From a virus: DNA of 25,359 bases. Position 1 is the stretch's first letter, and each line of letters opens with the position of its first letter. Positions 8,196 to 20,684 of this stretch are shown in pieces. The notes beneath the pieces are model-generated. The model did not search any database. It saw nothing but the letters and a program-made list of their open reading frames with translations, and was not told the origin of the DNA. The translations under genes were made by a program, and so were the position numbers. The stretch spans positions 1-25,359 of the IMG/VR virus record IMGVR_UViG_3300044730_001493, one strand, 5' to 3'.

Positions 8196-8209
8196 TTATC
8201 TGGGTTTAT

Positions 8210-8281
8210 GGGAGTATAGCTTAATGGTCAGAGCGGCCTGCTTATAACGGGTTAGTCTGGGTTCAACTCCCAGTACTCCTA
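8210..8281 (+). tRNA. tRNA-Ile(UAU)
   Basis: A full cloverleaf folds by hand: acceptor 8210-8216 with 8274-8280 (G1.U72 wobble), D stem 8219-8222 with 8231-8234, anticodon stem 8236-8240 with 8248-8252 (two G.U pairs), loop 8241-8247, variable loop 8253-8256, T stem 8257-8261 with 8269-8273 and loop TTCAACT. The anticodon at 8243-8245 is TAT, reading AUA. A at 8281 is the discriminator; CCA is not encoded. Most bacteria read AUA with a lysidine-modified CAU tRNA, so a UAU tRNA is uncommon. Confidence 0.88.
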
Positions 8282-8832: not shown

Positions 8833-11800
8833 ATGCCTCTGAATAAGTTAGATAACTTTATCAAAAATGTTGATGGGCGTACATTATATGTAAATCCAAA
8901 TGATTTAGACGCTACAGATTCAATTACGAATACTGGTAACTCTCTTGCTCAACCGTTTAAAACCATACAAAGAGCACTGTTAGAGGCAGCAAGATTTTCT
9001 TTTGTAAGTGGAAAAGATAACGATTTAGTAGAAAAGACAACTATTTTAGTTTGGCCTGGTGAACATTTAATTGATAACAGACCTGGTTTTGCAATTTATG
9101 ATAATGGTGGCACAGCATATGCAGTTCCACCAACAGGAGGAACAGGTTCTCCTGCACAAGGCGTCTTATCATTAGAATTGGATTCCAATTTCGATTTAAC
9201 GCAAGAAGATAATATTCTCTATAAGTTTAATAGTATTAATGGTGGTGTTGTAGTTCCCAGAGGAACTTCTATTGTTGGTCTTGACTTAAGAAAAACAAAA
9301 GTCAGACCAAAGTATGTTCCTAATCCAACAGACCCATTAGTTGCTAAATCTGCAATTTTTAGAGTCACCGGCGCCTGTTACTTCTGGCAGTTTTCTTTCT
9401 TTGATGGAGACGATTCTGGACTTGTTTATACTCATCCATCATTTTTCACTAGCAACTATCAATCAACTCCAAGATTCTCTCACCACAAACTGACTTGCTT
9501 TGAGTATGCTGATGGTGTCAATGAGGTTGGTACTTATGGTCTAACTGACCTTGATATGTATTATAGCAAGTTATCGAATGCTTTTAATTCATATCGTCCA
9601 ATTCCAACAACTGCAAAGTTTCCTGCAAGTGATGAGGATTTTGCAAAGAGAAATTCGGAATGGGAGATTGTTGGTGCATTTGCATCAGACCCACTTGATA
9701 TTTCTTCAATTATTTCTGGAAATGGAACTACAGCAAGTACACAAGTTACTGTAACAACTTCAGAAGCACATAATCTAAATGTAGGCACTCCAATTAAAAT
9801 CAGAGGAGTTTCTGCACCAGAATATAATATTGCTTCAGTAGTCCAATCTGTAATTAGTGATACTCAATTTACATATTTACTTGAAACATTCCCAATTACT
9901 CTTCCCGCTAACCCAAGCGCATCTGGTGCGACAGTTGTAGTTGAAACTGATACCGTATCTGGTGCGTCTCCTTACATCTTCAACTGCTCATTGAGATCAG
10001 TTTGGGGTATGAATGGAATGCACGCTGATGGTAGTAAAGCATCAGGATTCCGTTCGATGGTTGTTGCACAGTTTACTGCTGTGTCACTTCAAAAAGACGA
10101 CCGTGCATTTGTAAAGTATGATAAAGAAACAAGATCTTATAATGGAGTCATTTATAGCACTGTTTATGGTGGAGATTTGCCAACCGGTGCTTCACAAACA
10201 GATACTACAAAAGTTTATCACCTAGATCCAGATGCGATTTATCGACACGGGTGGGAAACTAGTCACATTAAAGTTACAAATGATTCTTTCATTCAGGTTG
10301 TTTCTGTTTTCGCAATCGGATTCAACAAACACTTTGACCTAGAGTCTGGTGGTGATGCATCGATTACCAACTCAAACTCTAACTTTGGTCAGATTTCATT
10401 AAACTCTGATGGATATAAGGCACAAGCATTTTCAAAAGATAATAATGCTTTCATTACATCAATTATCACACCTAGAGATATTAATCCAGTAGAAGAAGAT
10501 ATTGAATGGTTGTCAATCGATGTTGGTCTTACAACATCTGTTGGTATTACAACTCATCTTTATCTTTTTGGTCTCAATGCAGTAGATAGTATTCCTGTAA
10601 GTGTTACTCAAGGATATCGAATTGGTGCAAGAGTAAATGATAAACTTTATCTTTCAATCGGTTCGACAGAATATTCTGCAAACATTTATATGCAAGATGG
10701 AGTTACAAGCTCCTTCCACGCATATTCAGTAACAAGTGTATCTTCTTCAACTCTAACTCTTGGAACTCACGCTATTCAAACTGGTGAGAAGATTATTATT
10801 AACAGTGAAACTGGAGATCTTCCAGAAAATGTAACTCCACATATTGTTTATTATGCAATTCGTGTTAACTCAACTCAAATTCGTCTTGCAACATCATTCA
10901 CCAATGCTCTGAACAATGAGGCATTAACTCTGTATGGTGGCACTCAACTGGAAGTTTACAGTAGAGTTTCTGATAAAATTGCAGGGGATATTGGATCTCC
11001 AATTCAATTTAACTCTACAGTAGGAAACTGGTATGTTACTGTAAATAGTGCAAACGAAATTTATAATCAACTTAATGCACTAGGAGTCGCGGAGTTAGGT
11101 GAAACAACAGATCTTACTTATGTTAAGAGAATCGTTGATGAAAGAAGTTTGGATGAGAGAGTTTATAAGATTAGAGCAGTTATTCCAAAAGAACTCACTG
11201 CTGCTAAAGATCCTGAAGAAGGATTTATTATTCAGGATTCAAGCACAACTGGTGCCCGTCCAAATGACTTTACAAGAACTAGTATTGCGAGCACGGATTA
11301 TGAGTATAACAAGAATCCAAGATTTATTACAACCTGTTCTGTAAGTTCCAATACAATTACAGTATTGTCTGAAATTCCTCACGATTTGAATATTGGTGAT
11401 ATTGTTGTTGTTAAGAATGTAACTGACAGTAATAATCTACCTGGCACAGATAATCGTGGTTATAACGGACGCTTCCGTGTTGCATCCGTTGTAGATGATA
11501 TGTCATTTACATATTCTACAACTGACTTAAGTGGAAGAGTTCATACTCCCGGAGCAACGAGCACAAATAATATTGACTTGAGAGTTACGGATGACCAAGT
11601 TAGAGAACTTCCACGTTTTGAAAGAAATGATATTCAACAAAACTTGTATGTTTATCGAAATGAAGTCATCTCCCCATATGTTCAAGGGCAGCAGGATGGA
11701 ATTTACCACTTGTATGTTTTAAATGCAAGTAATGGAATTCCAGAAGAATTTATCAATCTCAAGTATTCGCAGAGTCCTGTAGACCTCTATCCACAGTTGG

Positions 11801-14418
11801 ATAGAGATAATGTTGAGGCAAATCCCCCATCGGCAAAGACATTTGCTCTTCGTGCTCCAATTGGTGACACAAACACCAGTGATTTAAAGAAGAGTATTAC
11901 CAGAGAAACTGTTGATAAATTTGCAATATCTTTGGGAATTGGTCAATCAATTACTGCAGCATCCACAACACCAACGAGTTCAACACTCACATTCGGCAGA
12001 AGACACGGATTTGGTGCAATTACTCTCGGTGCAATTACTGCAGGAGCATCCTATAATAATGGAACTTATTATGATGTAAAACTCTTAAATACAGACCCAA
12101 ATCCACTTGTTGGAACTTGGAAAGGTGCAACAGCAAAAGTTGTTGTATCTGGCGGCGCTGTCACTTCTGTTGATATTATTTCTGCTGGTTCTGGTTATAC
12201 AAATGGAGAGGCACTCTATTTTGATAATACCAGAATTGGTGCTGGTAATGGTAATGCAAGATATACCTTATCCACTGCTGGTATTTCTACAAGCGTTGGT
12301 GATGTAGTTCAGGTTACTGGTATCGGTACAACCGCAGATTCATATCATCGTATCAGTGCAGTCAACTCTGCAACTCAAATTTCTATTGCTAAAACTGCAG
12401 GAGACCCAAATCCTGTTGTTGGACAATATGCTGTAGTTGTTGGTCCATCCGCAAGAGTTACATCAACGAGTTATAGTTCTGTAACAGGAATTGCAACATT
12501 TACAACAGCAACCCCACACGGATTGTTAGCAGGAAATAAGTTTAGAATTATTGATTCTTCAAATAATAATGTTGGAGACTACATTGTAAAAGAAAGAGTA
12601 GGTGTTACTACATTTACAGCAACAACGAATAAGTCTTTAAGTGTTGTAAATGGATTTGTTTTAAAGCACTCTCTATCTGCAAATGATGCAATCTCTGATG
12701 TTAGAGAAGAAAACTTTGGTGTCCGTCAAATTTCTTTCTATGGAAATGAAATTGTAAGACTCACAACAGCAATTACAGACGATTCTGCTGCGACAACACT
12801 TCAAGTTTCTTCCATCACTTCAGGTATTGGCACCGGTGCAAGATTCCCAATGGGTTCTTACATTCAGGTTGATAGTGAGGTAATGCGAATTACTTCTTCA
12901 AGTAATAACTCTCAATTTACAGTTCTTCGTGGTGCTCTTGGAACAAGAAAAGAAAGTCACGATGCTGGTTCTTTGATTCGCAAAATTAATCCCCTTCCCG
13001 TTGAGTTCCGCAGACCATCTATCGTTCGTGCTTCTGGACATACATTTGAATATCTTGGATATGGTCCTGGAAACTATTCCACAGGTCTTCCTCAAGTTCA
13101 ATTGAAGTCTCTGACTGAAAGAGAAGACTTCCTAGTACAATCTCAAGAAAGGTCTGGTGGTATTGTTGTTTATACTGGTATGAATAATAGTGGTGATTTC
13201 TTCAGTGGAAACACCAAAACATCTTCATCTTCTGGTGAAATCACTTCATATGATATTCCAACTCCTACAGTAACTGGTGAAGACCCTTCCAAGTCTAGTG
13301 TTGTTTATGATGAAGTCACTGTTAAGGAGAGGCTACTTGTAGAAGGTGGTGATTCTGGCACAATCCTTTCCCAGTTTGACGGTCCAGTTACATTCAACAA
13401 GCAAATTAGAGCAAAAGACGCTGTAACCTTTAGTGGTCAAGTTAGAATCACTAATGCATCAACTTCAGATTCTGTTGGAAAAGGTGCTCTAATTGTTAAG
13501 GGTGGAGTTGGAATTGGTGAGAATCTTTATGTCGGTGGGAATACATTTTACACCGGCACTGTTGCAATTGCAAATGCAACAGATTCTACAACCACAACCA
13601 CTGGAGCATTTACAGTTGCTGGTGGAGTCGGAATCGCAAAGAATCTGAATGTCGGTGGTTCATTATCAGTTGCAGGTGTATCAACATTTACTGGTCTTCT
13701 TGACGCAAATGGTGGAGCAACAATCGACAACATTAGAATTGGTGTTGCTGGAGACAATGAAATTGACACTTCCACTGGAAACTTAACAATTGATTCTGCT
13801 GGTGGTACTACAACTCTTGATGACAACGTTAATATTACTGGCACTGCAACAGTTACAGGTCTCCTTGATGCAAATGGTGGGGCATCGATTGATAACATTC
13901 AAATCGGAATCACTGGTGACAATGAAATTGATACTTCCACTGGTAATCTAACAATTGATTCTGCTGGTGGTACTACAACTCTTGATGATAATGTCAGCGT
14001 CACAGGTACTCTATCGGTAACTAGCACTTTAAGTGTAAATGGAAATACAACTCTTGGTAATGATAGTGGTGACATTACAACTGTTAATGGGGAGTTGAGA
14101 GTTACTGGAGACATCACTGCATTCTATACTTCTGACCAAAGATTCAAAGATAATATCCAACCAATTGAAAATCCACTTGCTAAAGTCCTTTCAATCAGTG
14201 GTAATACTTATTCTTGGAATGAGAAATCTGGAAAAGAAGGAAATGATGTTGGTGTAATCGCACAAGAAGTTCTAGAAGTTCTTCCTGAAGCAGTTACAAA
14301 TAGAGATAATGGTTACTTGGCAGTTGATTATCAAAGACTCGTTCCTCTGCTTGTAGAAGCAATTAAAGAGTTGTCAGGTAAAGTTGAATATCTTGAGCAA
14401 AAACTCCAAGATAAATAA
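8833..14418 (+). CDS. Long tail fibre with C-terminal S74 intramolecular chaperone
   Basis: 1861 residues. The N-terminus (KNVDGRTLYVNPNDLDATDS, then PFKTIQRALLEAARF) resembles the start of pectate-lyase-like beta-helices used in phage fibres. The long middle is beta-rich, with modules such as SAGSGYTNGEALYFDN and VTTFTATTNKS. Residues about 1620-1730 hold two 55-residue repeats of the TGLLDANGG ... NEIDTSTGNLTIDSAGG type. The last 96 residues are a Peptidase_S74 chaperone: S1767, D1768, R1770 and K1772 form the SDxRxK signature, followed by GVIAQEVLEVLPEAV and a terminal coiled coil. In this family the domain trimerises the fibre and then cuts itself off just before the serine. It would therefore shape a trimeric receptor-binding or side fibre. 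The distal receptor-binding part cannot be pinpointed. Confidence 0.9.
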   Translation: MPLNKLDNFIKNVDGRTLYVNPNDLDATDSITNTGNSLAQPFKTIQRALLEAARFSFVSGKDNDLVEKTTILVWPGEHLIDNRPGFAIYDNGGTAYAVPPTGGTGSPAQGVLSLELDSNFDLTQEDNILYKFNSINGGVVVPRGTSIVGLDLRKTKVRPKYVPNPTDPLVAKSAIFRVTGACYFWQFSFFDGDDSGLVYTHPSFFTSNYQSTPRFSHHKLTCFEYADGVNEVGTYGLTDLDMYYSKLSNAFNSYRPIPTTAKFPASDEDFAKRNSEWEIVGAFASDPLDISSIISGNGTTASTQVTVTTSEAHNLNVGTPIKIRGVSAPEYNIASVVQSVISDTQFTYLLETFPITLPANPSASGATVVVETDTVSGASPYIFNCSLRSVWGMNGMHADGSKASGFRSMVVAQFTAVSLQKDDRAFVKYDKETRSYNGVIYSTVYGGDLPTGASQTDTTKVYHLDPDAIYRHGWETSHIKVTNDSFIQVVSVFAIGFNKHFDLESGGDASITNSNSNFGQISLNSDGYKAQAFSKDNNAFITSIITPRDINPVEEDIEWLSIDVGLTTSVGITTHLYLFGLNAVDSIPVSVTQGYRIGARVNDKLYLSIGSTEYSANIYMQDGVTSSFHAYSVTSVSSSTLTLGTHAIQTGEKIIINSETGDLPENVTPHIVYYAIRVNSTQIRLATSFTNALNNEALTLYGGTQLEVYSRVSDKIAGDIGSPIQFNSTVGNWYVTVNSANEIYNQLNALGVAELGETTDLTYVKRIVDERSLDERVYKIRAVIPKELTAAKDPEEGFIIQDSSTTGARPNDFTRTSIASTDYEYNKNPRFITTCSVSSNTITVLSEIPHDLNIGDIVVVKNVTDSNNLPGTDNRGYNGRFRVASVVDDMSFTYSTTDLSGRVHTPGATSTNNIDLRVTDDQVRELPRFERNDIQQNLYVYRNEVISPYVQGQQDGIYHLYVLNASNGIPEEFINLKYSQSPVDLYPQLDRDNVEANPPSAKTFALRAPIGDTNTSDLKKSITRETVDKFAISLGIGQSITAASTTPTSSTLTFGRRHGFGAITLGAITAGASYNNGTYYDVKLLNTDPNPLVGTWKGATAKVVVSGGAVTSVDIISAGSGYTNGEALYFDNTRIGAGNGNARYTLSTAGISTSVGDVVQVTGIGTTADSYHRISAVNSATQISIAKTAGDPNPVVGQYAVVVGPSARVTSTSYSSVTGIATFTTATPHGLLAGNKFRIIDSSNNNVGDYIVKERVGVTTFTATTNKSLSVVNGFVLKHSLSANDAISDVREENFGVRQISFYGNEIVRLTTAITDDSAATTLQVSSITSGIGTGARFPMGSYIQVDSEVMRITSSSNNSQFTVLRGALGTRKESHDAGSLIRKINPLPVEFRRPSIVRASGHTFEYLGYGPGNYSTGLPQVQLKSLTEREDFLVQSQERSGGIVVYTGMNNSGDFFSGNTKTSSSSGEITSYDIPTPTVTGEDPSKSSVVYDEVTVKERLLVEGGDSGTILSQFDGPVTFNKQIRAKDAVTFSGQVRITNASTSDSVGKGALIVKGGVGIGENLYVGGNTFYTGTVAIANATDSTTTTTGAFTVAGGVGIAKNLNVGGSLSVAGVSTFTGLLDANGGATIDNIRIGVAGDNEIDTSTGNLTIDSAGGTTTLDDNVNITGTATVTGLLDANGGASIDNIQIGITGDNEIDTSTGNLTIDSAGGTTTLDDNVSVTGTLSVTSTLSVNGNTTLGNDSGDITTVNGELRVTGDITAFYTSDQRFKDNIQPIENPLAKVLSISGNTYSWNEKSGKEGNDVGVIAQEVLEVLPEAVTNRDNGYLAVDYQRLVPLLVEAIKELSGKVEYLEQKLQDK
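13693..14022 (+). repeat. Two tandem 165-base repeats inside the fibre gene
   Basis: The unit at 13693-13857 is repeated at 13858-14022, offset exactly 165 bases (55 codons). Similarity is strongest over about the first 135 bases and then fades. Differences are mostly at third codon positions. The encoded unit includes DNEIDTSTGNLTIDSAGGTT. Confidence 0.8.
14410..14417 (+). promoter_or_regulatory. NATAAATA late-promoter-like motif
   Basis: GATAAATA at 14410-14417 spans the last codons and stop region of the long fibre gene and lies 17 bases before the ATG of the next fibre gene. It fits the T4-type late promoter core. Confidence 0.4.
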
Positions 14419-14434
14419 CTAAAAAACATATAAG

Positions 14435-16438
14435 ATGGCAAATTATAAAAAGTCATTTAATTTTAGAAATGGCGTTCAGGTTGATGAAGATAATTTTGTC
14501 GTAAATGCTAATGGTTTGGTGGGAATCGGAACAACGATTCCCGAAGGATATCTTTTGAATGTATATGGTGACACTAGAATTACTGGTCTTGTCACAGCAA
14601 GTCAGTTAAACATTGGAGTTGCAACTGTTGGATTCTTAACTGCAACTGGAGCATCGGTTTCTGGAGTAGTAACTGCAGCATCTTTCTCTGGAAGTGCTGC
14701 AGGATTAACTGGAATTTATGCAATTGCCGTAGATGGGTGGTATATTGATGGTGGATATATCTCTACTACATCGAATGTTGGAATTGGAACAACACTACCA
14801 ACTGGAAATTTCCAAGTTGGCACTGCTGTTACGATTAATAACACTGGAAATGCAACCTATACTGGTATTATAACAGCAGCAGGATTTACTGGAATTGGTA
14901 CAATTTCTGCAGCAACTTTTGTTGGAACTGGTCCTGGTCTTACATCTTTAAATGCATCTAATATTGCATCAGGAACTTTATCAAACGATAGACTACCTTC
15001 AAATATTAGTGTTGCTGGAGTAGTAACTGCTTCGAGTTTTGTCGGAGTTGGGTCAGACTTAACATTACTTAATGCAACTAATATTGCATCGGGGACTTTA
15101 TCAAACAGTAGACTCCCTTCAAATATCAGTGTTGCTGGCGTAGTAACTGCTTCGAGTTTTGTTGGTTCTGGAATTGGAATTACACAAATTAATGCAAGCA
15201 ACATAGAGTCTGGAACTCTATCAAACAGCAGACTTCCCTCAAGCATCAGTGTTTCGGGAATTGTAACTGCAACTACTTTTGTTGGCAACTTAACTGGAAC
15301 TGCAACAACTGCAACTTCTTTATCTGGAAGTCCAAATATCGTTGTTGGAATTGCAACAGCATCTAATTCTCTAAATGTAGGAACTGCAGGTACAGGATTC
15401 TCTGCACTATCAACTGGAAATGTTGGTATAGGTACTGCAATTCCAACATCAGAATTGCAAATTATTAAAAATAATAACACTCTTGTCGAAGTTATTTCGC
15501 AGACCAACCAAGCAAGAATTAGTATTGGTCAATCTGTTGGAGTAGGCAGAAGTACAGCAGTTATTAGATTTGGAAGTACAAATAAAACTCTTGATATTTT
15601 AAACAATGATACTGGAAATGTAAATCTTTATCTTCACGCTGGACCTTCTGGTATTGGCACTGGTAGATTCGATTGGATTTATGGTCAGACAAATACTGAA
15701 TTAATGTCTCTGACCTATGCAGGATACTTGGGAATTGGAATCACAAATCCAACAAGTAATCTTCACGTCGTAGGAACTTCAACAGTTACAGGTAATGCCA
15801 ATTTCGGAAGCAATGTAACAATTGTAGGTAATCTTACTGTTGGTAGTATAACTTTACCATCCCTGATTACTAACACTAACATTATTAATTCTTCTGGTGT
15901 CTCAACATTCTTCGATTTAGATGTATCTGATAATCTAATAGTTACCAATAACATTGGAATTGGAACTACATCAGCAATTACTGATTTAGATGCCAGAGGA
16001 AAAGTTGCTTTATTTGGAAGTATAGGAATTAACACTGATGTTGTTCCTACTGAAAGTCTAGTTGTCGGTGGATATTCTTACTCTGATGGAGTTGGAATAG
16101 GAACTACTGCAACTGATGCACATCTTGGAGTTTATGGAAATATTGAGATTTATCCTCCAGATGAGGGATATCAATCTATCATCAACGTTTACGGTGGAAA
16201 TGTAATTTTTGATAATACTTCTACGGTTGGTGTAGGAACTACGGTTGCCCTAGCGGCAGTTGACTTCTCAAATGCTGGTTATGGTATTACAAATAAGATT
16301 GCATCCTTTATGATTATACCAAGAATAACCGCATCAGAAAGAGTAGGACTGATTACTCAAATCGGAGCAATCGTTTATAATTTGACAACTAATAAGTTTC
16401 AGGGATACACTGGAGTAGGTTGGACGGATTTCCATTAA
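14435..16438 (+). CDS. Second tail fibre-like protein with GIGTT and 40-residue repeats
   Basis: 667 residues, low complexity and rich in Gly, Thr, Ser, Asn and Ile. It opens with YKKSFNFRNGVQVDEDNFVV and contains about eight copies of a VGIGTTxPxxxLxVxG motif spread along the chain, a hallmark of phage fibre shafts. Residues about 173-292 are three tandem 40-residue repeats (ASNIASGTLSNSRLPSNISV, then AGVVTASSFVG). The C-terminus ends in a compact domain (ERVGLITQIGAIVYN, then NKFQGYTGVGWTDF) common to phage fibres and likely the folding or tip end. No S74 chaperone is present, unlike the gene upstream. It starts 16 bases after that gene's stop and precedes the halogenase. It probably forms a trimeric shaft; receptor specificity is unknown. 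Confidence 0.85.
   Translation: MANYKKSFNFRNGVQVDEDNFVVNANGLVGIGTTIPEGYLLNVYGDTRITGLVTASQLNIGVATVGFLTATGASVSGVVTAASFSGSAAGLTGIYAIAVDGWYIDGGYISTTSNVGIGTTLPTGNFQVGTAVTINNTGNATYTGIITAAGFTGIGTISAATFVGTGPGLTSLNASNIASGTLSNDRLPSNISVAGVVTASSFVGVGSDLTLLNATNIASGTLSNSRLPSNISVAGVVTASSFVGSGIGITQINASNIESGTLSNSRLPSSISVSGIVTATTFVGNLTGTATTATSLSGSPNIVVGIATASNSLNVGTAGTGFSALSTGNVGIGTAIPTSELQIIKNNNTLVEVISQTNQARISIGQSVGVGRSTAVIRFGSTNKTLDILNNDTGNVNLYLHAGPSGIGTGRFDWIYGQTNTELMSLTYAGYLGIGITNPTSNLHVVGTSTVTGNANFGSNVTIVGNLTVGSITLPSLITNTNIINSSGVSTFFDLDVSDNLIVTNNIGIGTTSAITDLDARGKVALFGSIGINTDVVPTESLVVGGYSYSDGVGIGTTATDAHLGVYGNIEIYPPDEGYQSIINVYGGNVIFDNTSTVGVGTTVALAAVDFSNAGYGITNKIASFMIIPRITASERVGLITQIGAIVYNLTTNKFQGYTGVGWTDFH
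14951..15310 (+). repeat. Three tandem 120-base repeats inside the fibre gene
   Basis: Units begin at 14951, 15071 and 15191, exactly 120 bases apart. The first two are nearly identical through GTAGTAACTGCTTCGAGTTT; the third is more diverged. A partial earlier copy may precede 14951. In frame, each unit is 40 residues. Confidence 0.88.
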
Positions 16439-16461: not shown

Positions 16462-17925
16462 ATGAAAAAATTTGTAATTCTTGGGTCTGGAACTTCTGGG
16501 TTGATTGCTGCGACAATGATAAAAAAACGTTGGGGAGACCAGGTAAGTGTCTCCCTATATTATGATGCAAAGAAAAGAAACATTGCAGTTGGTGAAAGCA
16601 CAACACCAATTGTCACATATTTCCTAAAAAAATATCTAGATGTAGATATTACTGATTTTTTAAAGGATACTGGAAGTACCGTAAAACTAGGAATTAATTT
16701 TAAAGATTGGATTCCTGGAGTAGAATATTTTCACGGATTTCCAGAATTAGATTTTTCTAATACTCATTATCCTGAAAGTTTGTATTCAATTTTAATTGAC
16801 AATTATGATGGAGGAATGAATTACTCTAAAGCAACTTCAACCTTGCCGAGTCATACATTTAGATTTGTTCACGCCCTACACATAGACACTCAAGTATTTT
16901 CAAAGTATCTTGAAGAAAGAATTGGGAATGATATTGAAATCATTGATGATATTGCAGAAAAGGTAAACTCTGATGGTGAAAATATTCAGAGTATTGTTTT
17001 TAAAAATTCTGGTGAGGTAAAGGCAGATTTTTATATCGATGCATCTGGATTTAACGCAATCTTGTTAAAAGAATTAAATCCAAAGTGGAATGATATATCA
17101 GACTATTTGCCTATTAATAGAGCAATTCCTCAACAAGTTCCCCATCAATTTGCAGAAGTTCCTTCGTACACTCTGGCAGAAGCAACTGACAATGGATGGA
17201 TATGGAGAATTCCAATCGGAAATAGATACGGAACTGGATACTTATATTCATCCAGATTTACTTCTGATGAAGAAGCAAGAATAAAATACAATCAGTGGAT
17301 TGTAGAAAATTTCAATACAGAACTTCAAACAGATAGAATTATTGAATACAATCCAGGATATTATGAAAATCACTGGATAGGTAATTGTATGGCAGTAGGA
17401 TTGTCAAGCGGATTTGTTGAACCTTTAGAATCCACTGGTATTCATATTATCATTCAGCAACTGAAAGATTTTATTGAGTATAATCCAACACTTAATAACT
17501 TAAAATACAACAGAATGGAGTGCAACCGTCGTTGTAATAGTTTGTATAAAGAAGTCGTAGAGTTTGTCTGTTTACATTACAATACCAATCGCACAGATTC
17601 TGAATTCTGGAGATATATGACTTCTCATAAAACAGAATGGGTAAAAGCATTTGATGAGAAATGTAGAGAAGAGTTTCTAGAAGAAATTAGTATTGAAAAT
17701 GGTAAAGAGTTTTGGCACGTTGATAGTTATATTCAGGTTGCTCAAGGTCTTCAAATGTTTAATCCAGAATCAATTCAAAAGTTTTTAGATTCTTTGCCAG
17801 ATGGAAAACAAATTTTAGAAAATTGTCGTATTCGTTATGAAGAAGTTCAGAGAGCAAAAAGACAGAATATGAATATCCCTCACCATTCCGTATTAAATGG
17901 GTCGGTCATCATAAATAATCATTAA
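16462..17925 (+). CDS. Flavin-dependent halogenase (tryptophan halogenase family), VirX1-like
   Basis: 487 residues. The N-terminal FAD-binding Rossmann motif is GSGTSG (8-13). VGESTTP (43-49) is the halogenase flavin loop. K75 in VKLGINF is at the position of the catalytic lysine. WIWRIP (246-251) is the WxWxIP signature that separates halogenases from monooxygenases. SGFVEPLESTG (316-326) carries the catalytic Glu323 and the halide-site residues S324-G326. All key residues are present, so an active enzyme is expected: it would turn FADH2, oxygen and halide into a halogenating species. Cyanophage Syn10 encodes a relative, VirX1, reported to iodinate varied aromatic substrates. It sits between fibre genes, with ATTAAATA at 16434-16441 as a weak late-promoter candidate. 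A flavin reductase is not encoded here and must come from the host. The natural substrate is unknown. Confidence 0.9.
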   Translation: MKKFVILGSGTSGLIAATMIKKRWGDQVSVSLYYDAKKRNIAVGESTTPIVTYFLKKYLDVDITDFLKDTGSTVKLGINFKDWIPGVEYFHGFPELDFSNTHYPESLYSILIDNYDGGMNYSKATSTLPSHTFRFVHALHIDTQVFSKYLEERIGNDIEIIDDIAEKVNSDGENIQSIVFKNSGEVKADFYIDASGFNAILLKELNPKWNDISDYLPINRAIPQQVPHQFAEVPSYTLAEATDNGWIWRIPIGNRYGTGYLYSSRFTSDEEARIKYNQWIVENFNTELQTDRIIEYNPGYYENHWIGNCMAVGLSSGFVEPLESTGIHIIIQQLKDFIEYNPTLNNLKYNRMECNRRCNSLYKEVVEFVCLHYNTNRTDSEFWRYMTSHKTEWVKAFDEKCREEFLEEISIENGKEFWHVDSYIQVAQGLQMFNPESIQKFLDSLPDGKQILENCRIRYEEVQRAKRQNMNIPHHSVLNGSVIINNH

Positions 17926-17940
17926 AAAGTAGTAAGTGAT

Positions 17941-19029
17941 ATGGCAGCATCTGTAACAAAAGAAGGTCCTTACTATTCTTCTGGGTCTATTTCTTTTAGT
18001 TCTTTGAGAAGTAATTTCAAAGAAGCAGGGTCTGGTTCAATTAGTGCATCAGAGTTAAGAAGAAACACAACTGTAACAAATACAAATCCAATTGTTCCAG
18101 ACGCTACAGAAAATAGCAATATTTCTACTTCTTCAAATCTAGCAATATCACAATTCAGAAATTCAATCAAGTTTTATTACATCACTCAAACTGGCACTGA
18201 TGTCAATTTTGATATTGATGCTCAATCTTGGAATGGTAATCTAACTAAAAACATCAGAAAGTGGATGTATATCAATGGAACTTGTGGTTCCAATTCTGTA
18301 TCCTCAACAGCAGCAGACTTTAATACAACTGCTTATAACTTAACTGTTGATGTTTCTGGTGGAATTTATGGTGCCTCTGGTGCTGGTGGCACCGGTGCTA
18401 CTATCAGTGGTGGTAGTGGTGGTCCTGCTCTGTCTATGAATTCTTCTGGTGGAAATAATATCGTCGTATTTGTAAGAAGTAGTGCTAACATTTATGGTGG
18501 TGGTGGAGGTGGAGAAAAAGGAGCAACAGGTGCAGCAGGAAGCCCTGGAACTTGCACAGATTCTTATACTGCTTCTAATTGTGGAGGTTGTCCTGGATGT
18601 GCTAGTGGATATGTTGAAGGTGGTTGTTGGAGTGCTGGCGAATGTGCTAGAAGGCAGGTTTGTAACTGGTGGGGAAATTGTTGGTGGGAAGCATCTGCTT
18701 GGACGCATTATAGAACTTGCACTAGAACCTATGGAGTTTCTGGTGGAACTGGTGGAGAAGGAGGTAATGGTGGACCCGGAAGGGGTTATAATAATGCAGG
18801 ATCTTTAGCGGGTGCTGGTGGTGCCGCTGGTGGTCCTAATAATGGATGTGGTTCTACCAATGGCGCAACAGGAGAAACTGGTGGTAGTGGTGGAGACTGG
18901 GGTTCTAGTGGTGGTAATACAACAAATAGTGGAAATGGTGGATCTTCAGGAAGAGCAATTTCTGGATCTAATTATACAGTCACTGGCACAATTAATTCCT
19001 CAACAATTAAAGGATTATACCTACCATAA
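17941..19029 (+). CDS. Gly-rich, Cys/Trp-rich adhesin-like tail protein
   Basis: 362 residues. The N-terminus has repeated SGSIS(F/A)S(S/E)LR motifs (14-42, again near 68-76) that occur in cyanophage tail fibre proteins. Residues 139-200 and 267-340 are Gly-rich, and 191-205 show five collagen-like Gly-X-Y triplets. Between them, 205-260 holds nine cysteines (205, 214, 217, 220, 229, 235, 241, 247, 260) and six tryptophans (230, 243, 244, 248, 249, 254). The C-terminus (NYTVTGTINSSTIKGLYLP) is a short conserved-looking tip. Gly-rich sandwiches with variable inserts are known from T4-like receptor-binding adhesins such as phage S16 gp38; similarity is in style only. It follows the halogenase by 15 bases and is probably virion-surface exposed. 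Cysteines may form disulfides or bind metal. Confidence 0.8.
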   Translation: MAASVTKEGPYYSSGSISFSSLRSNFKEAGSGSISASELRRNTTVTNTNPIVPDATENSNISTSSNLAISQFRNSIKFYYITQTGTDVNFDIDAQSWNGNLTKNIRKWMYINGTCGSNSVSSTAADFNTTAYNLTVDVSGGIYGASGAGGTGATISGGSGGPALSMNSSGGNNIVVFVRSSANIYGGGGGGEKGATGAAGSPGTCTDSYTASNCGGCPGCASGYVEGGCWSAGECARRQVCNWWGNCWWEASAWTHYRTCTRTYGVSGGTGGEGGNGGPGRGYNNAGSLAGAGGAAGGPNNGCGSTNGATGETGGSGGDWGSSGGNTTNSGNGGSSGRAISGSNYTVTGTINSSTIKGLYLP

Positions 19030-19035: not shown

Positions 19036-19059
19036 TTTTTAAAATTTGAATTGATTAAA

Positions 19060-19380
19060 ATGTCTGAAAATCAAGATTATCCTTCATTACTAGAGCAGGG
19101 TAAAAATCTAGCAAAGTTTTCTTGGGATGTAATTAACTACATTCATAAAAATCAGGGAGAAGTGTTAATCGTCTCTGATAAAGTATTTGATGAAAGACTT
19201 GAAATTTGTAGAGGTTGTGAAAAATATGATAAGTATGAGAATAGGTGTAGAGAATGTGGATGCTTCATTCCAGCGAAAGCAAAAATTATCTTGGATAGTT
19301 GTCCACTAAACAAATGGACGGAAGATAAGGAAGGTTGGGATAAGAAGTTTGAAGATATTACAAAAAAACTTGAAGAATAG
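19060..19380 (+). CDS. Small zinc-ribbon-like protein, function unknown
   Basis: 106 residues starting MSENQDYPSLLEQGKNLAKF; ATG 19060 was chosen over TTG 19051. C50-x2-C53, C63-x2-C66, C68 and C81 in CRGCEKY, CRECGCF and CPLNKW form a likely metal-binding knuckle. The ICxxC ... CxxCGC ... CPLxKW pattern is common in small cyanophage proteins near tail genes and host-like proteins of unknown role. The flanks are helical and charged (N-terminal helix about 7-30, C-terminal KKFEDITKKLEE). It is the last gene before a strong terminator, so it closes the fibre/halogenase transcription unit. Confidence 0.72.
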   Translation: MSENQDYPSLLEQGKNLAKFSWDVINYIHKNQGEVLIVSDKVFDERLEICRGCEKYDKYENRCRECGCFIPAKAKIILDSCPLNKWTEDKEGWDKKFEDITKKLEE

Positions 19381-19448: not shown

Positions 19449-20684
19449 ATGAGACCGATGATTCAACTTCGTCCTCACCAACAAATTGCTCTGGATGCTC
19501 TGGCACAGCATCTTAAAGGGGTGTGTGTCTTCCCCACTGGCGGCGGTAAGACCAACGTGGGCATCTTTGATGCTCTGCGTGTGTTTGAGTCTGCTACTCC
19601 CAAGACCATTGTGGTGACGGCACCCCGCATCCTCCTGGCAGAGCAGTTGTCTGCTGAATACCTTGAGTTTATCACCAATGCTTCTGTGATGCACGTTCAC
19701 AGCGGTGAAACTCATCACTTCAGCAGCACTCGTCCCAACGTGATTCGCACTTGGTATGAGCAAACTCAAGGTCACAAACTGATCTTCACCACTTACAACT
19801 CTCTGCAGCAACTTGCAAAGGCAGATATTGAGGTGGATACGATTTACTTTGATGAGGCACATAATAGCGTTCAACGTCACTTCTTTCCTGCTGTAGAGCA
19901 TTTTGCTGCTGAAGCAAAGCGTTGCTACTTCTTTACTGCAACTCCCAAATATTCTGCCACCGTTGCAAAACCTGGTATGAATGATGTTGCTGTCTACGGC
20001 AATATTATCGCCAAAGTTCCTGCTCCTGAATTGGTGCAGGGTGGTTATATCATTCCTCCCAAAGTGATTACTGCTCCGATGCGTCTGTCCGTCAAGGGTG
20101 AGGATATTGCTCAACGGGACTGTGAGTATCTGATGCAAATTATTCAGGACAATCCTGTTGATAAGATTCTGGTGTGTGCAAAGGCAACTCGCCACATTAT
20201 TGCTTTGCTGTCTGAATCTGACTTTGCCGACCAACTTGCCGAGCAAGGTTACTCTGTGCTGCACATTACTGCCAAGCACGGTGCTTTTATTGACGGGCAG
20301 AAGGTCAATCGTGAAGTGTTTTTTGACACCCTGAATGCTTGGGGCAAAGACCCTGACAAAAAGTTTGTGGTCCTGCATCACAGCATTCTGGCAGAGGGCA
20401 TCAACATTTCTGCTCTGGAAGCGGTCGTATTCCTCCGCTCTATGGACGTTGTGGGCATCGGTCAGACCGTTGGTCGGACTCTGCGTCTGCACCCCCAGGA
20501 TGCTGCTGGAATCCGCTCTGGGACGCTTCAGGCAGGCGACCTGGAGTCCTACACCAAATCCTATGGTCTGGTGGTCTGCCCCGTCTTTGACAAGGCATCC
20601 ACGGGCACTGCGAAGGCAGTCCAGAATGTGGTGGACATCATCTTCAAGCAAGGTGAGGTTGCTGTGTCGGTGGTCCGCCGCTGA
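19449..20684 (+). CDS. SF2 DNA/RNA helicase, DEAH-box (UvsW/ResIII-like)
   Basis: 411 residues. Helicase motifs are all visible: Q-like LRPHQQ (7-12), motif I PTGGGKT (29-35), Ia TAPR (57-60), II DEAH (135-138), III TATP (163-166), V EGINI (316-320) and VI QTVGRTLR (339-346). It would unwind or anneal nucleic acid using ATP. T4 UvsW has the same layout and controls recombination and replication switching; this gene is shorter and may be a separate helicase. The leader is almost absent if ATG 19449 is used. ATG 19458 gives a 22-base gap from the -10, matching other promoters here, and may be the real start. The gene is clearly richer in GC than its neighbours, most of all in its last third, which suggests a different origin or codon selection. 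Confidence 0.88.
   Translation: MRPMIQLRPHQQIALDALAQHLKGVCVFPTGGGKTNVGIFDALRVFESATPKTIVVTAPRILLAEQLSAEYLEFITNASVMHVHSGETHHFSSTRPNVIRTWYEQTQGHKLIFTTYNSLQQLAKADIEVDTIYFDEAHNSVQRHFFPAVEHFAAEAKRCYFFTATPKYSATVAKPGMNDVAVYGNIIAKVPAPELVQGGYIIPPKVITAPMRLSVKGEDIAQRDCEYLMQIIQDNPVDKILVCAKATRHIIALLSESDFADQLAEQGYSVLHITAKHGAFIDGQKVNREVFFDTLNAWGKDPDKKFVVLHHSILAEGINISALEAVVFLRSMDVVGIGQTVGRTLRLHPQDAAGIRSGTLQAGDLESYTKSYGLVVCPVFDKASTGTAKAVQNVVDIIFKQGEVAVSVVRR

Follow-up and report, generated by a model that had tools for sequence, protein, structure and literature searches.

Among phage enzymes, VirX1 of cyanophage Syn10 (PDB 6qgm) resembles the one described here in being a flavin-dependent halogenase of family PF04820 encoded behind tail-fibre and Gly-rich tip genes, and it iodinates diverse aromatics in vitro (PMC8407142). 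The RiPP enzymes SrpI, MppI, MibH and ChlH are likewise flavin-dependent and act on Trp in ribosomally made peptides (PMC12615548, PMC12518702). The free-tryptophan halogenases PrnA, PyrH and RebH provide the closest solved folds and share the catalytic motifs. On the side of host recognition, the gp38 proteins of S16 (6f45) and PP01 (9v85) have the Gly-rich tip fold with variable loops that we also find here, and the loops of PP01 gp38 that protrude from the poly-glycine lattice touch the receptor (PMC12892980).

The locus analysed here lies in a virus record of 25,359 bases (IMG/VR IMGVR_UViG_3300044730_001493), hereafter the window, and differs from each of these systems. Its halogenase falls in a clade separate from VirX1, with a multiple-alignment identity of about 24%, and its cassette has one gp38-type tip in place of the small gp40 protein and the numerous 2OG-Fe(II) oxygenases that accompany VirX1. 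The enzyme is 24-27% identical to PrnA, PyrH and RebH and shorter than these between residues 96 and 121. The substrates of SrpI, MppI, MibH and ChlH are short precursor peptides in natural-product clusters, whereas the Trp proposed as target here is internal to a folded protein of the virion. No RiPP leader-core precursor and no processing or export genes were found by the halogenase, whose neighbours are only the tail, tip, DUF6171 and helicase genes. The window's adhesin differs from S16 and PP01 gp38 in its Cys/Trp-rich hairpin insert and in having a halogenase gene as its partner. The pairing of a halogenase with a gp38-type adhesin appears to be new: full-text searches of open-access papers gave no title or abstract that links a halogenase to a tail fibre or a phage receptor-binding protein, and we know of no established natural substrate of a viral halogenase.

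A halogenase gene between tail and tip

The closest match to the window in the phage collection is Synechococcus phage S-SRM01 (Kyanoviridae, Serangoon Reservoir), whose tip is 88% identical. The cassette, all of it on the plus strand, starts with a gene for a long tail fibre of 1861 amino acids with a C-terminal Peptidase_S74 chaperone domain (8833..14418; PF13884, E 1e-16), whose S-SRM01 orthologue is annotated as long tail fiber protein distal subunit. It is followed by a tail protein gene (14435..16438; phrog_3269, E 5e-49) that ends 23 bases before the halogenase gene (16462..17925; 487 amino acids). The adhesin gene (17941..19029; 362 amino acids) begins 15 bases 3' of the halogenase end, so that the coordinates bear out the sequence-only reading, which had the halogenase flanked by genes for a tail protein and an adhesin. 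A small Cys-rich DUF6171 protein (19051..19380; PF19668, E 6e-10) and a DEAD/DEAH helicase (19449..20684; PF04851/PF00270), which forms the conserved downstream border, complete the cassette. The order fibre, tail, halogenase, tip, DUF6171, helicase is common to S-SRM01 and six metagenomic contigs, compared as far as each contig extends, whose halogenases are 78-100% identical to that of the window. Whether or not a halogenase is present, nearly every cassette has the DUF6171 gene next after its gp38-type tip, and the gene also adjoins a sister-clade halogenase in locus L113. Just 5' of the fibre gene, positions 8209-8274 are 95% identical to the tRNA-Ile of Synechococcus phage S-CREM1. Scanning of the window for the late promoter pattern TATAAATA gave 0 matches, and sigma-70 and terminator scans of the window gave the same counts as shuffled sequences, so that the late transcript supposed in the sequence-only reading gains no support from these scans.

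The product of 16462..17925 matches PF04820 (Trp_halogenase) over residues 3-446 (E 8.9e-84; profile positions 1-457 of 458) as well as phrog_2928 (E 4e-99). Its GxGxxG motif occupies residues 8-13. The catalytic residues named in the sequence-only reading are all present, namely K75 (codon at 16684-16686), the WxWxIP motif WIWRIP at residues 246-251 (17197-17214) and E323 (17428-17430), and K75, W246, P251 and E323 are invariant in an alignment of 24 members. The Lys and Glu of flavin-dependent halogenases are needed for halogenation. The AlphaFold2 model (pLDDT 91) finds its best folds in PyrH, SttH and PrnA, with an E of 1.7e-40 and a TM of 0.84 for PyrH 2wet. Since gene order is kept and dN/dS is low (0.05-0.08, purifying selection), the gene is a maintained one. 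Judged by profile, motif and predicted fold, it encodes an intact flavin-dependent tryptophan halogenase (PF04820).

A tree of 153 phage halogenases places the 19 tip-cassette enzymes in a clade of their own, with support of 100, apart from VirX1. Because the enzyme lies outside the VirX1 clade, the in vitro profile of VirX1, which the sequence-only reading had cited, is not transferable to it; VirX1 was rejected as a direct model. A recent bacterial origin was rejected as well, as none of the best 80 matches in GTDB genomes exceeds 35% identity.

We collected 53 distinct family loci with enzymes at least 48% identical to that of locus L197. A tip gene lies within three genes of the enzyme in 42 of these 53, which answers in the negative the question whether relatives occur mostly away from fibre genes. 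In L361 and L376 the family enzyme is near a fibre gene, the contig of L351 stops just past the tail gene and the enzyme, and that of L374 stops at the enzyme. Exceptions to the pairing are L355, L356 and L373, where the enzyme is located elsewhere, and L337-L341, where it follows the helicase on the opposite strand and the locus shows no tip. Two further loci have a gp38-type tip beside a halogenase that is not placed in the tip-cassette clade: the enzyme of L273 (1179-5316) lies outside this clade and groups with that of S-SSM7, and the enzyme of L281 (1328-4015) is too short for the tree. These may possibly represent a separate recruitment of a halogenase beside a gp38-type tip. In the window-type cassettes L204, L211, L202, L209 and L344, a 2OG oxygenase-like gene adjoins the tip or splits halogenase and tip.

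An adhesin with a Cys/Trp-rich insert

A PDB sequence search with the 362-residue adhesin returned a chance match only. As no solved relative was found in this way, a fold search was needed. The AlphaFold2 model has a mean pLDDT of 82, with block means of 72-97 from residue 81 onwards. It matches PP01 gp38 in its receptor-binding domain (9v85; E 1.4e-5, probability 1.00) and the gp37-gp38 tip of S16 (6f45; E 1.8e-4, probability 1.00); predicted viral gp38 proteins were matched as well. The sequence belongs to phrog_11439 (tail fiber). On the strength of this modelled fold, the product of 17941..19029 is a gp38-type receptor-binding adhesin, that is, the putative tip of the tail fibre, in keeping with the gene order fibre, tail, tip. 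Among 84 relatives the Gly-rich columns are invariant and the insert is strongly variable, and dN/dS of 0.09-0.22 indicates purifying selection on the adhesin.

The hypervariable insert comprises residues 205-260 (18553..18720). As the sequence-only reading had noted, it contains six Trp (230, 243, 244, 248, 249 and 254), and these are accompanied by three Tyr and nine Cys. At 1.3% Trp, the occurrence of six Trp among 56 residues has a binomial p of 9e-5, and all six are invariant across seven relatives, down to 64% identity. The insert (about residues 203-266) is modelled as three long strands with block pLDDT values of 86-94. The segment NWWGN (242-246), which includes Trp243-244, forms the turn between predicted strands 225-241 and 247-266 and is flanked by Cys241 and Cys247 in the model. 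We propose this loop, C241-N-W-W-G-N-C247 (18661..18681), as the target of the halogenase; Cys241 and Cys247 may form a disulphide, and the Trp may be exposed.

Insert tryptophan in tips with and without the enzyme

Many IMG/VR contigs show that the cassette occurs both with and without a halogenase between tail and tip genes, which constitutes a natural experiment. In halogenase-free relatives the phrog_3269 tail gene directly precedes the tip gene. Relatives of the tip were collected by patterns of the N-terminal domain only and, in addition, by approach from the halogenase side. The pattern of the first tip scan, RRQ[VE]CNW, overlapped the Trp motif and could bias Trp counts; the link held with the N-terminal patterns. 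In the final set of 91 distinct tips, 46 have a halogenase no more than three genes away and 45 have none; the latter were judged on the contig, so that the genome may carry a halogenase elsewhere. In 30 of the 45 halogenase-free cases, tail and tip genes were directly joined.

The Trp hypothesis had been set by the sequence-only reading before the tests were run. Mean insert Trp was 3.98 in tips with and 1.18 in tips without a halogenase (Mann-Whitney 3e-10, 91 tips). All 46 tips with the enzyme have at least one insert Trp, compared to 24 of the 45 without, and the co-occurrence with a Trp-rich tip that was to be surveyed is therefore found. In the same 91 tips, insert Tyr was lower in the presence of the halogenase, and Phe and His were not raised. 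The rise in Trp was confined to the insert: Trp outside it was 1.03 versus 0.90% (p 0.34), Trp in the upstream tail gene was the same (p 0.66), and the helicase, fibre and DUF6171 genes differed little, fibre and DUF6171 in the opposite direction. A Cys-bracketed loop of at most eight residues containing Trp, a pattern drawn up after the data had been seen, is present in 45 of the 46 tips with and in 8 of the 45 without a halogenase.

The phylogenetic tests used a tree of the tip N-terminus with the insert left out, on which the halogenase state changes at least 10 times. Phylogenetic generalised least squares (PGLS) gave an increase of 1.88 insert Trp with the halogenase (p 0.0036), and one of 1.7 Cys (p 0.001), which is as strong as that of Trp. 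Pagel's test favoured dependence on the halogenase for three or more Trp (p 7e-4), for the Cys-Trp loop (p 5e-6), for nine or more Cys (p 6e-4) and for one or more Phe (p 0.004, with Phe less frequent where the enzyme is present), but not for Tyr (p 0.14) or Arg (p 0.62). Tests of this kind are liberal where few events carry the signal. A strict independent-pairs sign test on the tips had too few events and was not relied on. There is thus strong comparative support for a link between halogenase and insert Trp that survives correction for tip phylogeny, with Cys accompanying Trp. Because Cys rises as strongly, the link is possibly with a type of insert and not with Trp alone. The earlier proposal that Trp and Tyr of the phage's own virion are the substrate is hence supported in its Trp part by comparative genomics. 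Tyr, which is not raised in tips with a halogenase, was rejected as a target.

Proposed modification of the tip and alternative explanations

The association of the enzyme with insert Trp points to chemical modification by the phage of its own host-recognition protein. We assign a probability of roughly 0.6 to the reading that the halogenase serves specifically to modify the phage's receptor-binding protein and halogenates Trp of its loop. Reduced flavin, probably from a host reductase, together with O2 and halide would feed the enzyme, which would add Cl, Br or I to Trp of the Cys-flanked hairpin loop (C241-NWWGN-C247 and its neighbours) in the gp38-type adhesin, the product of the following gene. 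The host-contact surface would thereby be altered in bulk, hydrophobicity and electronics. The comparative data establish an intact enzyme, an adhesin of gp38 type, a stable pairing of the two genes and a dependence of the adhesin's Trp content, limited to the insert, on the enzyme; the activity of the enzyme, the adhesin as its substrate, the choice of Trp and the altered receptor binding we infer. Trp halogenation in ribosomal peptides by SrpI, MibH and MppI offers a chemical precedent (PMC12615548), whereas acceptance of only a C-terminal Trp by the peptide brominase SrpI (PMC10286304) counts against an internal loop as target, and presence of the Cys-bracketed Trp loop in eight halogenase-free tips counts against the adhesin as substrate, as do the loci named above as exceptions to the pairing. 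For the further suggestion that the enzyme cross-reacts with host surface aromatics, no supporting result was found.

The main rival is linked inheritance, in which halogenase and Cys/Trp-rich insert type travel together as neighbours and the enzyme acts on something else, such as free Trp, an indole or a host molecule. It would fit the adjacency of the two genes, the single clade of tip-cassette enzymes, the rise of Cys alongside Trp and the shortage of events in the strict independent-pairs test. However, the tip N-terminal domain separates the halogenase from the insert, and yet insert Trp follows the repeated changes of the halogenase on the tree of this domain. The loops, moreover, vary widely in sequence (CNWWGNC, CGGPWNSFC, CSGWWFWFGC, CGWGGTC) and have mainly Trp near Cys in common, and insert Trp also occurs in the tip of L273, whose neighbouring halogenase is of another lineage, close to that of S-SSM7. 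We consider linked inheritance unlikely, although it deserves to be taken seriously.

In a metabolic or chemical-warfare role, as proposed for cyanophage prnA genes, host metabolites would be halogenated or an antibiotic-like compound made, and the position in the cassette would be incidental. Antibiotic protection of the host (PMC2984593) and altered host metabolites (PMC10452541) have been suggested for phage halogenases before, and talC, hli or psbA do accompany some other phage halogenases in metabolic islands. The family of the window's enzyme, in contrast, is found mostly in the tail-tip cassette with no biosynthetic genes alongside, and its presence predicts insert Trp content, which makes such a role very improbable. 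About as improbable is that the enzyme binds the tip or modifies it otherwise (e.g. by Trp hydroxylation), or serves as a flavoprotein chaperone or redox partner of the insert without halogenation, which would suit the Cys-richness of the insert and the rise of Cys with the enzyme but sits poorly with the retained Lys and Glu needed for halogenation and the low dN/dS.

The reading that the adhesin loop is halogenated singles out one protein, and within it a loop some seven residues long, as the candidate target, so that the question of the substrate of viral halogenases becomes directly testable. If it is true, phages would change how they recognise their hosts through halogenation after translation in addition to sequence variation, a chemical route that has gone unrecognised. 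Enzymes able to halogenate internal Trp residues in folded proteins would then be available from this family, and halo-tryptophan carried on virions would add a new source of organohalogens to fresh and sea water.

Halogenases elsewhere in phages

Of 17 isolates inspected, 10 carry the halogenase in a fibre cassette (S-SRM01, Syn9, Syn10, S-H38, P-TIM40, S-SSM7, P-RSM6, S-CREM1, S-WAM1 and S-SZBM1). In Syn1, S-PM2, S-MbCM6 and Sf-CH3 it lies in a metabolic island, and in P-SSM2, HTVC008M and S-SCSM2R elsewhere. The halogenase pair of Syn10, which includes VirX1, follows Gly-rich tip proteins and precedes a run of 2OG-Fe(II) oxygenase-like genes. A common order in IMG/VR is Gly_rich_2 proteins, a small phrog_1787 protein (gp40), one or more halogenases and 3-9 2OG oxygenases; these tandem oxygenases include a JmjC/cupin gene. 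Loci of this VirX1 type (L004, L016, L018, L020-L023 and L025-L104) hold one to three Gly_rich_2 tips and one or two halogenases. A fibre or tip gene lies within five genes in 25 of 42 VirX1-anchored loci, and a 2OG oxygenase is present in 35 of the 42. Presence of gp40 and of the halogenase agreed in 47 of 47 fibre-anchored loci that have 5 kb downstream, with both present in 6 and both absent in 41.

The VirX1-type cassette has the appearance of an island for modifying tail-tip proteins. A broader proposal, on which we are evenly divided, is that phages carry dedicated protein halogenases, which would place Cl, Br or I on Trp of their own virion receptor-binding loops, and that the VirX1-type cassettes, in which Gly-rich tips are accompanied by one or two halogenases and as many as nine 2OG-Fe(II) oxygenases, represent this system of tail-tip modification on a larger scale. 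In L019 (2751-5144; S-SSM7) and L041 (162-3415; a 280-kb contig), Gly-rich, Cys/Trp-rich paralogues with 28-46 Cys and 8-18 Trp each lie near a halogenase and 2OG oxygenases, and represent a second, unrelated-looking set of Cys/Trp-rich proteins beside a halogenase.
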